This document shows, piece after piece, positions 20,174-22,404 of a stretch of DNA of 39,557 nucleotides. This stretch comes from Alphaproteobacteria bacterium (GTDB lineage: Bacteria; Pseudomonadota; Alphaproteobacteria; Thalassobaculales; Thalassobaculaceae): contig JABMNR010000041.1 in assembly GCA_013203465.1 (NCBI GenBank), forward strand, positions 1 to 39,557. Reading direction: 5' to 3'. A program made the translations under genes and the position numbers. How positions within the stretch are numbered: position 1 is the first letter of the stretch; every line of letters begins with the position of its first letter. The notes below the pieces were generated by a model. That model did no database searches. It saw nothing but the letters and a program-made list of their open reading frames with translations, and was not told the DNA's origin.

Positions 20174-20596
20174 TTAGCGCATCTTCTCCCACAAGCCACG
20201 CCGTTCCCGCCGTGCTTCGGCTTCCAGGGTACGATACGCCTTGCCGTGGCTGTCCGGGACCGCCCAGCCGTCGCGCACCATGGCGGCGGACAGGTCGCCG
20301 TCCGGGGTACGGCACAGGGCCAGGCCGGGGCGGCGCTCGATACAGCTGACCGGACGGTCGTCGATCAGCTCGACCAGATGCGCCCGCGCGGCGGCGCCGC
20401 ACAGCCAGGGCAACTGACCGTCGAGGCATTTCTGCCGCGGGCCGGGGGCGGCGATGCCGGCGAGGTGCAGGGTCTTCTCACCGATCGCCAGGGTGTTGCC
20501 GTCGATCACCCGGGCCGGGCCCTCAACGACCTTGGGGTCGGCGGCCCACGCCGCCGTGGCGGTGACGAACGACACCGCCAGAACCACACGGATCAT
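20174..20596 (-). CDS. Secreted SNase-fold (thermonuclease-like) protein lacking catalytic residues
   Basis: A 140-residue protein with a signal peptide ending AAWA near residue 18, then a staphylococcal-nuclease-like fold: RVIDGNTLAIG, LHLAGIAAPG, WLCGAAARAHLVELI and MVRDGWAVPD. Against the canonical enzyme, the metal/catalytic positions are replaced. DGDT is DGNT (N34), the first Arg is H44, the Asp and Glu of the D-x-PE motif are A50 and G52, and the second Arg is P90. Four cysteines (57, 66, 85, 95) remain, as in related secreted alphaproteobacterial proteins. I choose the ATG at 20596 because a TATACT -10 sits right before the upstream ATG at 20626. It converges with valS 13 bases away. 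Nuclease activity is unlikely; it may bind something else. Confidence 0.8.
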   Translation of the reverse strand: MIRVVLAVSFVTATAAWAADPKVVEGPARVIDGNTLAIGEKTLHLAGIAAPGPRQKCLDGQLPWLCGAAARAHLVELIDDRPVSCIERRPGLALCRTPDGDLSAAMVRDGWAVPDSHGKAYRTLEAEARRERRGLWEKMR

Positions 20597-20739: not shown

Positions 20740-21213
20740 ATGCGTCGACAATGGATCGCCACCGCCGCGATACTGACGGCAGGGCTCATCGCCGGTTTCG
20801 GGGTGACCGGACCGGCACACGCCACCGAGGGCAAGCGGGTCCGGATCACCGGGGAGGTCATGGATACCTGGTGCTACCTCTCCGGTGTGATGGGGGGACC
20901 CGAGGCCGTGGTCGGCAGCGCGCATCACACCTGTGCCTTGTGGTGCGCCGCCGGGGGCATTCCGGTCGGAGTACTGACCGAGGACGGCACGGTGTATTTC
21001 GTTCTGGTGATGGAAGGCAGCACCGACATTGTCGGCACGGACACGGTGCTGGAGCTGCAAAGCGACCGCATTACCGCCGATGGCATGGCCTACGAGCGTG
21101 ACGGCAACAACTTCCTGGTGGTCGAGAAGATCGTCACCAACGAGGGGTTGACCAACCACAATCACGAGGATTTCGGACCGATTCCCGGCTTCGCGATCCC
21201 CGGCTTGAAATGA
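20740..21213 (+). CDS. Secreted protein with Cys...HH-x-Cys-x3-Cys motif (unknown family, paralogue of next gene)
   Basis: A 157-residue exported protein. A signal peptide ends at PAHA near residue 28. The mature part has C45 (VMDTWC), H62-H63, C65 and C69 (AHHTCALWC), then GGIPVGVLTEDG, and a His-containing tail (NHNHED). The blocks V-x-D-x-x-C and C-x-A-G-x-x-P-x-G-x-L-x-x-DG align without gaps to the next protein, so the two are paralogues. The start at 20740 has AGGAG at the right distance. With SCO1 two genes downstream, a periplasmic role in copper, heme or thiol handling is plausible. I do not recognise a named family, and the metal-site idea is inference from residues and neighbours. 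Confidence 0.8.
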   Translation: MRRQWIATAAILTAGLIAGFGVTGPAHATEGKRVRITGEVMDTWCYLSGVMGGPEAVVGSAHHTCALWCAAGGIPVGVLTEDGTVYFVLVMEGSTDIVGTDTVLELQSDRITADGMAYERDGNNFLVVEKIVTNEGLTNHNHEDFGPIPGFAIPGLK

Positions 21214-21223
21214 GGAGGCGACG

Positions 21224-21784
21224 ATGCGGTTGATCCGGAACGTCATAGCCGCCGCCCTCGCGATGGCGGCGCTGAGTGCAGCCGCCCAGGCCCAGGAGAG
21301 CATGGCCCGCAGTTGGGGGTTGGTTGGCGAGGAAAAGGCCCGGTTCGAGGCCAAGGTGGTGGATCTGCCCTGCGCCATCACCGGGAATTGCCCGGCCGAT
21401 TGCGGTGCCGGCACGCGCCCGCTTGGCCTGCTGCGCGATGATGGCAGCCTGGTGGTCGCCGCCAAGAACACCCAGGCGATCTTCTCCGGTGCGGTCGAGG
21501 ATTTGATCGCGTTCTGCGGCAAGCGGGTCGAGGTCGACGGCTTGATGGTGGGTGAGGGCACGCCGCGAATCTATCAGGTGCAGCTGGTGCGCGACGTGGA
21601 AGCCGGCGGTGACTTTCAGAAGACCACGCTCTGGTCGAGAGTCTGGAACGAGCGCTATCCCGAGCTGAAGGCCAAGAAGGGCCCGTGGTTTCGCAAGGAT
21701 CCGAGGGTCAACGCCTTGATCGCGCGGGACGGCTATCTCGGCCTCGGCCTTGAGGTCGATAAGAAGTTCATCGCGGAATGGTGA
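21224..21784 (+). CDS. Secreted cysteine-containing protein (unknown family, paralogue of preceding gene)
   Basis: A 186-residue exported protein with a signal peptide ending AQAQ near residue 24. C50 (VVDLPC), C56, C60 (CPADC) and C98 are present. The CGAGTRPLGLLRDDG segment matches CAAGGIPVGVLTEDG of the upstream protein position by position. It lacks the paralogue's HH pair and has a longer C-terminal region rich in Trp, Arg and Lys (LWSRVWNERYPELKAKKG). The start at 21224 follows GAGGCGACG, 10 bases after the previous stop. It overlaps the SCO gene by 7 bases. One transcript of three genes is the simplest reading. Function is unknown. Confidence 0.78.
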   Translation: MRLIRNVIAAALAMAALSAAAQAQESMARSWGLVGEEKARFEAKVVDLPCAITGNCPADCGAGTRPLGLLRDDGSLVVAAKNTQAIFSGAVEDLIAFCGKRVEVDGLMVGEGTPRIYQVQLVRDVEAGGDFQKTTLWSRVWNERYPELKAKKGPWFRKDPRVNALIARDGYLGLGLEVDKKFIAEW

Positions 21785-22404
21785 CGCGCGCGATCCTAGG
21801 CGGTTTCGTCGGCCTGTTGCTGGCATGGCCGGCCGCTGGCCATGAGAACCACGCGCACAGCCCGCCAAAGCCAGCGGCGGAGGCGATGCAAGTGCCGGCC
21901 AATGTACCGTTTCCGGTGGCGATCGATGGCCGCTACGCCCTGATCGATCAGGATGGTGTGCCGCGCACGCAGGCCGATTTTCACGGCGGCTATGCACTGA
22001 TTTTCTTCGGGTATGCCAATTGCCGGGGCATTTGCTCGGTGGCGTTGCCGCGCATCGCCGCGGCACTCGACAGTTTGGGCACGGACGGGACGGCGGTGCA
22101 GCCGATCCTGATTACCGTCGACCCGATCAACGACACCCCGGCGGCGATGAAGGCGGCATTGCCGAAGATACATCCACGTCTCATGGGATTGACCGGCGAC
22201 GAGCCGGCCCTGTCGGCGGCGCGCACGGCGTTTCAGGTCAAGAGCAAGCAGCTCTTCGTTGATCGAAACGGACAGCCGGTGTTCGCCCATGGCGGGTTCA
22301 TTTATTTGATGGGGCGGAACGGTGAGCTGTTGACCGTGATGCCGCCGGTTCTGAGCCCGGAGCGCATGGCCGAGTTGGTTCGCCGTTATATGGCGGCGGG
22401 TTAG
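21778..22404 (+). CDS. SCO1/SenC family copper/thiol protein
   Basis: A 208-residue thioredoxin-fold protein of the SCO1/SenC family. A hydrophobic N-terminus (residues 5-20) is followed by a His-rich stretch, GHENHAHS, that could bind metal. The CX3C copper/redox motif is C82-x3-C86 (GYANCRGICSV) and the conserved distal His is H171 (FAHGGFIYLM). The ITVDPINDTP block is also typical. SCO proteins deliver copper to the CuA site of cytochrome oxidase or act as disulphide reductases in the periplasm. No oxidase genes are in the window; the partners here appear to be the two secreted paralogues upstream. The ATG at 21778 overlaps the preceding stop. Confidence 0.92.
   Translation: MVTRAILGGFVGLLLAWPAAGHENHAHSPPKPAAEAMQVPANVPFPVAIDGRYALIDQDGVPRTQADFHGGYALIFFGYANCRGICSVALPRIAAALDSLGTDGTAVQPILITVDPINDTPAAMKAALPKIHPRLMGLTGDEPALSAARTAFQVKSKQLFVDRNGQPVFAHGGFIYLMGRNGELLTVMPPVLSPERMAELVRRYMAAG

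Follow-up and report, generated by a model that had tools for sequence, protein, structure and literature searches.

A dedicated SCO-type protein co-inherited with two unnamed secreted protein families in Alphaproteobacteria: a possible periplasmic copper/thiol module

Oxidase assembly is the usual explanation for SCO proteins, and the reason for which many bacteria maintain several of them is an open question. What, then, might a SCO protein serve whose gene lies in an operon with two small secreted-looking proteins that carry no family name? This question is raised by the window, i.e., the whole stretch of 39,557 nucleotides analyzed here, which stems from the 4.48-Mb assembly of a member of the Thalassobaculaceae. 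A first-pass annotation, made from the letters of this DNA alone, had read three of its genes as two paralogous secreted Cys-x3-Cys proteins, referred to below as P1 and P2, that form an operon with SCO1. The coordinates and reading frames of all three genes were recovered as it had given them:

20740..21213, + strand: P1 gene, encoding a 157-residue secreted-looking, OB-like protein (predicted).
21224..21784, + strand: P2 gene, encoding a 186-residue secreted-looking, OB-like protein (predicted) with the core order of P1 and a C-terminal helical extension.
21778..22404, + strand: SCO1/SenC gene of the cassette, encoding 208 residues, perhaps unanchored, with C82-x3-C86 and H171.

Gene order, neighbors and inheritance of the cassette

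The start of P2 lies 10 bases behind the stop codon of P1, and the P2 and SCO genes overlap by 7 bases. The description of all three genes as starting within 10 bases of the preceding one therefore holds for P2 and SCO but not for P1, since the gene called ahead of P1 by our own gene caller is divergent and 143 bases away. A short secreted-looking protein divergent from P1 is encoded at 20174-20596 on the minus strand; it has no Pfam match at 1e-5 and is thermonuclease-like by eye. Ten neighbors scanned with Pfam bear unrelated names: a TolC-type protein, DUF2497, ValRS, a PAS_5 protein, IlvD, MlrC, GFA, an exonuclease/phosphatase, an Fe-S biogenesis protein and one protein without a match. 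Consistent with the first reading of the locus, no oxidase, cytochrome or copper ATPase gene was found among these ten, nor by eye in the rest of the window. Upstream of the cassette, neither a copper-regulator-like site nor another shared motif was found in 91 regions. Our own simple patterns, applied with approximate start codons, detected FNR-type sites in 6 of the 91 regions against 5.9 expected, strict FNR-, CueR-like, Irr/RirA-, Fur/Zur- and LexA-type sites in none of them, and no clearly enriched dyad.

P1 was detected (E <1e-29) in 10 of 289 genomes of the class and P2 in the same 10, with none found that had one of them alone; among 21 relatives, both proteins occurred in the same 4. 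A 398-genome sample of the phylum yielded 9 strong P1 matches, three of them already counted, all of which came from the window's genome, family or class (labels were shown for 30 of the 398). A scan of GTDB gave 337 relatives of P1, and we kept the best 80 of them. As these 80 loci were picked by similarity to the query and by two sequence patterns, counts derived from them are biased toward close relatives and partly toward the motif. Alphaproteobacterial titles were carried by 79 of these best 80 of 337. The single query used against plasmid records, from L062, found no P1 match there.

The operon is real and kept across many species, and the P1, P2 and SCO genes are co-inherited. In all 80 kept GTDB loci (best 80 of 337), P2 stands beside P1 on the same strand. 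Homologues without SCO neighbors had been named beforehand as an outcome that would refute the proposed copper/thiol system; when we looked for them, a SCO gene followed P1-P2 in 74 of the same best 80 of 337 loci and lay within about 1.5 kb of the pair in 15 of the 18 cassette-bearing sampled genomes, and the proposal withstood this search. Of the kept loci without SCO, L067, L086, L088, L089 and L136 reach a contig end within 1.2 kb, while L083 has room for the gene but lacks it; the sampled genomes without an adjoining SCO gene are G207, G093 and G298. The P1 and P2 cysteines are intact in the latter three and in L083, so that a SCO neighbor is not strictly required. One kept locus, L074, is titled Oceanobacillus sp. 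HTM 045, has 70% G+C and a SCO protein that groups with Paracoccaceae rows; this record is probably mislabeled or contaminated.

An analysis of shared neighbors at 92 loci did not bring out a client gene conserved among them. An esterase gene follows the cassette at 20 loci, mostly from Rhodobacterales, and opgC-, opgH- and opgG-like genes (by eye) lie on the other strand at 21, 20 and 16 of the 92, which is probably synteny. A rhodanese gene follows at 17 loci, all of which we take to be Rhodobacterales from their record titles, and in 15 of these 17 it starts 0-7 bases from the last sense codon of SCO (e.g., L121:10501-10956; loci among L060-L139), so that a fourth gene appears to belong to the operon in these loci. 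Several of these rhodanese genes encode an RR-containing N-terminus.

Conserved residues and predicted fold of P1 and P2

P1 contains the residue pattern C45-x5-M51-x10-H62-x2-C65-x3-C69, to which H142 is added near its C-terminus, and P2 contains four conserved cysteines. Their positions in the window and their conservation among 92 sequences are as follows:

20872..20874, + strand: P1 Cys45 codon, conserved in 92/92.
20890..20892, + strand: P1 Met51 codon, conserved in 92/92.
20923..20946, + strand: P1 His62-His63-x-Cys65-x3-Cys69; His62, Cys65 and Cys69 in 92/92, His63 in 89/92.
21163..21165, + strand: P1 His142 codon, conserved in 90/92.
21371..21403, + strand: P2 Cys50-x5-Cys56-x3-Cys60, each cysteine in 92/92.
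21515..21517, + strand: P2 Cys98 codon, conserved in 91/92, with Phe in L043.

The spacing C-x5-M-x(6 or 10)-H-x2-C-x3-C matches every one of the 92 P1 sequences. Since 80 of these come from the GTDB scan, whose selection patterns include Cys45, His62 and Cys65 of P1, the invariance of these three residues in the 80 is partly built in by construction; the patterns contain neither Met51, Cys69 and His142 nor any position of P2. In the 12 sequences from a whole-protein search that used no motif patterns, all listed P1 residues are present in 12/12, and Cys50, Cys56, Cys60 and Cys98 of P2 in 12, 12, 12 and 11. Homologues lacking the cysteines, the other outcome named beforehand as adverse, did not turn up: P1 and P2 keep Cys-x3-Cys in 92/92 sequences and in 12/12 of the pattern-free set. 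The His pair ahead of the P1 Cys-x3-Cys was likewise seen correctly by the first-pass annotation, as were the V-x-D-x-x-C motif of P1 (VMDTWC) and its 15-residue block CAAGGIPVGVLTEDG (P1 69-83). The counterparts in P2, VVDLPC and CGAGTRPLGLLRDDG (P2 60-74), are present as well, except that the proline of the block is not conserved. Less remains of the His-rich tail ascribed to P1: His142 is kept, but position 140 is His in just 6 of 92 sequences, and the tail thus amounts to a single conserved His. In one locus, L043:8280-8750 (G198:C75), the P1 copy has an in-frame TGA at the conserved Trp44, and the adjoining P2 is the one with Phe in place of Cys98; a decaying cassette or a sequencing/assembly error would fit.

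Signal-peptide-like N-termini, as had been reported for both proteins, were found by our own heuristic (not SignalP) as a hydrophobic stretch in all 91 scorable P1 and all 87 scorable P2 sequences of the 92 each, with AxA behind it in 74 and 60; homologue start codons were set by simple rules, and the scoring script passed over 1 P1 and 5 P2. The same heuristic saw a twin-Arg-like leader in 2/91 P1 and 0/87 P2 proteins.

Both families are undescribed, in that neither P1 nor P2 reached any Pfam or NCBIfam cut-off; the best Pfam E was 0.0057 among 75 P1 homologues and 0.013 among 83 P2 homologues. Searches of PDB sequences brought up no convincing match (lowest E values 0.012, 1, 0.18 and 1.1), and no paper on the P1-P2-SCO cassette was found in open-licence full texts, an absence that is weak evidence. 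P1 residues 25-42 give a weak, below-cut-off match to DUF5818 (PF19135; E 0.016), which spans just the first strand and leaves the Cys region unmatched. With 15.2 bits against a cut-off of 27, and matches at E up to 1 in 3 of 75 members, P1 falls short of this family, for which no paper was found in the open-licence literature.

P1 and P2 are indeed paralogous. Their similarity exceeds chance in BLASTP (E 2e-4, 24% over 88 columns) and in a profile-profile comparison (probability 95.8, E 8e-9), and the core elements follow the same order in AlphaFold models with a mean pLDDT of 82.9 (P1) and 92.7 (P2): a leader helix, a strand, two short Cys-bearing helices, two strands, a helix and two strands, with an additional helical tail in P2. 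Structure comparisons gave weak matches for both, with best E values of 0.036 (P1) and 0.030 (P2) in Foldseek and best VIA Z scores of 6.3 (P1; rmsd 3.4, 79 aligned) and 6.2 (P2; rmsd 2.1, 67 aligned). The top matches are mostly proteins known for OB folds, a few others stand further down the lists, and no cupredoxin fold was recognized among the matches listed for P1. The order of strands and helices is compatible with a five-stranded b-b-b-a-b-b OB barrel carrying a helical insert after strand 1, a reading to be taken with the weakness of the matches (E >=0.03, Z <=6.3). The prediction for both P1 and P2 is an OB-like barrel in which a helical insert holds Cys-x3-Cys. In the predicted secondary structure of P1, C45, M51, H62, C65 and C69 all lie in the single insert that separates strand 1 from strand 2; H62, C65 and C69 occupy positions i, i+3 and i+7 of one predicted helix and hence one face of it, with C45 in the adjacent helix. 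This predicted arrangement would favor a shared site.

A second family carries a similar site in another setting. Ten genomes of the class had weaker P1 matches only, one of which (L034) did not confirm as the membrane-anchored P1-like type. The proteins of this type are 240-269 residues long; they begin with a hydrophobic stretch (by eye), and their C-terminal domain is P1-like. C/M/H/C/C are all present in 19 of 19 distinct domains (18 by pattern, one by eye) in the spacing C-x4-M-x7-H-x2-C-x3-C, slightly unlike that of P1. The order of these residues after a GE-x2-D-type strand is shared with P1, whereas the N-terminal anchor and the ferric-reductase/Rieske neighbors are not, and neither P2 nor SCO was seen adjoining. 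In the eight loci with both genes called, the gene stands behind one for a ferric-reductase-like protein, and one or two ORFs for small membrane-type proteins lie nearby; the ferric-reductase-like protein is a PF01794 + PF00355 fusion in both cases tested (L017, L046). The pair is located at L017:2838-5340 (G000:C15), L013, L014, L015, L016, L045, L046 and L047, and the one copy in the window's own genome is that of G000:C15. The P1-like part had no Pfam match in the two proteins tested, and no published description of the membrane-anchored domain was found in the open-licence literature. The ferric-reductase/Rieske and P1-like pair has the look of a membrane redox complex not yet described, and a P1-type site beside such a protein points to redox or metal work.

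The SCO protein of the cassette

The assignment of the third gene to SCO1/SenC, with a Cys-x3-Cys of its own, is firm: PF02630 matches at E 2.4e-37 and 128.3 bits against a curated cut-off of 22.8, and among 83 cassette SCOs, that of the window included, C82 and C86 are conserved in 83/83 and H171 in 82/83, the remaining row being a gap. CPDxCP occurs in just 7 of the 83, and the other 76 have C-x2-[I/V]-C (CxxIC in 73, CxxVC in 3), most often followed by Ser (64/76); their chemistry may therefore differ. According to PMC9145763, SCO proteins are anchored by a transmembrane segment or a lipid. In the cassette type, our own heuristic found a hydrophobic N-terminal stretch in 73/83, AxA behind it in 56/83 and a lipobox-like sequence in 0/83, and the protein may be unanchored. 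Directly behind the signal-peptide-like stretch lies a conspicuous histidine motif:

21841..21858, + strand: HENHAH of the cassette SCO, a possible mature N-terminal His (predicted).

Where the signal-like stretch ends, 33/83 cassette SCOs (HENHAH of the window among them) vs 0/38 other SCOs have [A/G]-His and, 2-7 residues further, another His. If cleavage took place there, the mature protein would begin with His; that it does is a guess from the sequence. In PMC12537917 and PMC10952591, an N-terminal His of other secreted proteins chelates Cu(II) or other metals.

All 18 cassette genomes have one or more further SCO matches away from the cassette, and the cassette SCO is distinct from these. 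A quick tree was built from 85 SCOs of the cassette and a subset of 38 from the 50 other matches, with the cassette SCOs of G461, G486, G538 and G571 left out. In it, 37 of the 38 other SCOs form one starred group without any cassette SCO, a second starred group consists of 77 cassette SCOs, and the remaining 8 stand at unresolved places between the two. The cassette label requires 2 changes on this tree against a mean of 32.7 after shuffling, and none of 500 shuffles came as low. The 38th other SCO, L172 (G298:C26:10162-10569), is joined in the tree to a cassette SCO (with a support of 81 and no star); it belongs to G298, whose P1-P2 pair lacks an adjoining SCO gene, and may be a displaced cassette partner.

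Possible functions and comparison with known systems

We put the probability at roughly one half that the three proteins of the cassette make up a self-contained periplasmic copper/thiol module in which the dedicated SCO loads or reduces P1 and P2. Such a module could act as the relay or maturation factor set suggested by the first-pass annotation. SCO would take up periplasmic copper, perhaps aided by an N-terminal His in 33 of the 83 loci; it would keep the cysteines of P1 and P2 reduced and/or pass copper to them; and with Cu(I) bound, P1 (Cys3-Met-His) and P2 (Cys4) would serve as a pair of carriers or of electron-transfer proteins. What is new here is not SCO1/SenC, already a known family, but one dedicated SCO type tied to two unnamed families, one of which, P1, has 337 relatives in the GTDB scan. 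Should P1 and P2 be its clients, what an extra SCO serves could be tested directly on three small secreted proteins, and the known periplasmic copper sites would gain a Cys/Met/His site of a new kind, if it is real.

Some SCO/PrrC proteins are reported as thiol-disulfide reductases, and a tentative alternative that deserves to be kept in mind is a thiol-redox module without copper in P1 and P2, in which SCO would be such a reductase and P1 and P2 its redox substrates or a sulfane-sulfur/persulfide relay. The rhodanese gene placed directly behind SCO at 17 of the 92 loci keeps this sulfur-handling explanation alive; the 76 of 83 cassette SCOs that lack CPDxCP are in line with it, and the four conserved cysteines of P2 would be enough for two disulfides. 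However, the copper histidine of SCO is kept in 82 of 83 sequences, the odd number of conserved cysteines in P1, together with its conserved Met and His, is more like a metal site, and no such rhodanese was found at any of the remaining loci, among them the window. Zinc would be another occupant of such a site, as Cys4 (P2) and Cys3His (P1) are zinc-type ligand sets too. That P1 and P2 bind zinc, or have structural disulfides only, with SCO as a housekeeping folding helper and no job in metal transfer, would fit the many binding jobs done by OB-like folds, but is unlikely in view of the separate SCO type co-inherited with P1-P2 and of an N-terminal His signature that occurs in none of the 38 other sampled SCOs, both of which point to copper. 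An Fe-S cluster in P1 or P2 is thought unlikely as well, since Sec-like rather than Tat-like leaders argue against a cluster made in the cytosol.

PMC9145763 describes the known part of SCO proteins in CuA assembly, for which they cooperate with PCuAC or a different small copper protein. P1 and P2 might by analogy be copper carriers that work with the cassette SCO on COX2, which is found in 18/18 cassette genomes. Such an accessory set for cytochrome c oxidase strikes us as very unlikely: COX2 is present in all 56 genomes searched, cassette or not; each of the 18 cassette genomes also has PCuAC and at least one other SCO, so that the cassette would have no gap to fill; and no oxidase gene stands among the scanned neighbors. 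The same counts speak against an oxidase-only role. A replacement of PCuAC by P1/P2 found no support either, with PCuAC in 18/18 cassette genomes and 34/38 others. In a single locus, L040, P1-P2 and a pair of COX genes are some 5 kb apart (by eye), with COX2 at G093:C2:89156.

Several known systems resemble parts of the cassette. With small secreted OB-type proteins, namely the C-terminal part of NlpE, YgiW and NigD-like proteins, P1 and P2 share the predicted OB-like barrel, with VIA Z scores of 4.6 to 6.2, a range that VIA terms a common arrangement. CuA is ligated by the two cysteines of CxxxC, two His and one Met, and the corresponding set in P1 (C65, C69, H62, H142 and M51) is present and conserved, although in a different spacing. 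It is a doubtful extension of our preferred reading that P1 and the related membrane-anchored domain share a copper site of a new class, in which an OB-like barrel would bear C-x4-5-M-xn-H-x2-C-x3-C; His142 would complete a CuA-like residue set in P1, though on another fold than that of CuA, P2 would have a Cys4 version, and SCO would be the dedicated metallochaperone; if this were true, the cassette would encode a copper electron-transfer or delivery pathway new to description.

With the SCO1/SenC copper chaperones (PF02630), the cassette SCO has in common the family match, the CxxxC motif and the distal His; it differs from the sampled ordinary members in standing outside their group, in possibly being unanchored, in the lack of CPDxCP in 76/83 and in the possible N-terminal His of 33/83. 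A link to methanethiol oxidase gained no support, with SBP56 in 4/18 cassette genomes vs 7/38 without the cassette and none in the window's genome. The mtoX-SCO1/senC-mauG operon, described as a methanethiol oxidase operon of Ruegeria and Hyphomicrobium in PMC5739008, differs from the cassette by SBP56 and MauG genes, which were not seen in the window. In its layout it resembles the cassette, being a small operon that pairs a dedicated SCO gene with a presumed client.
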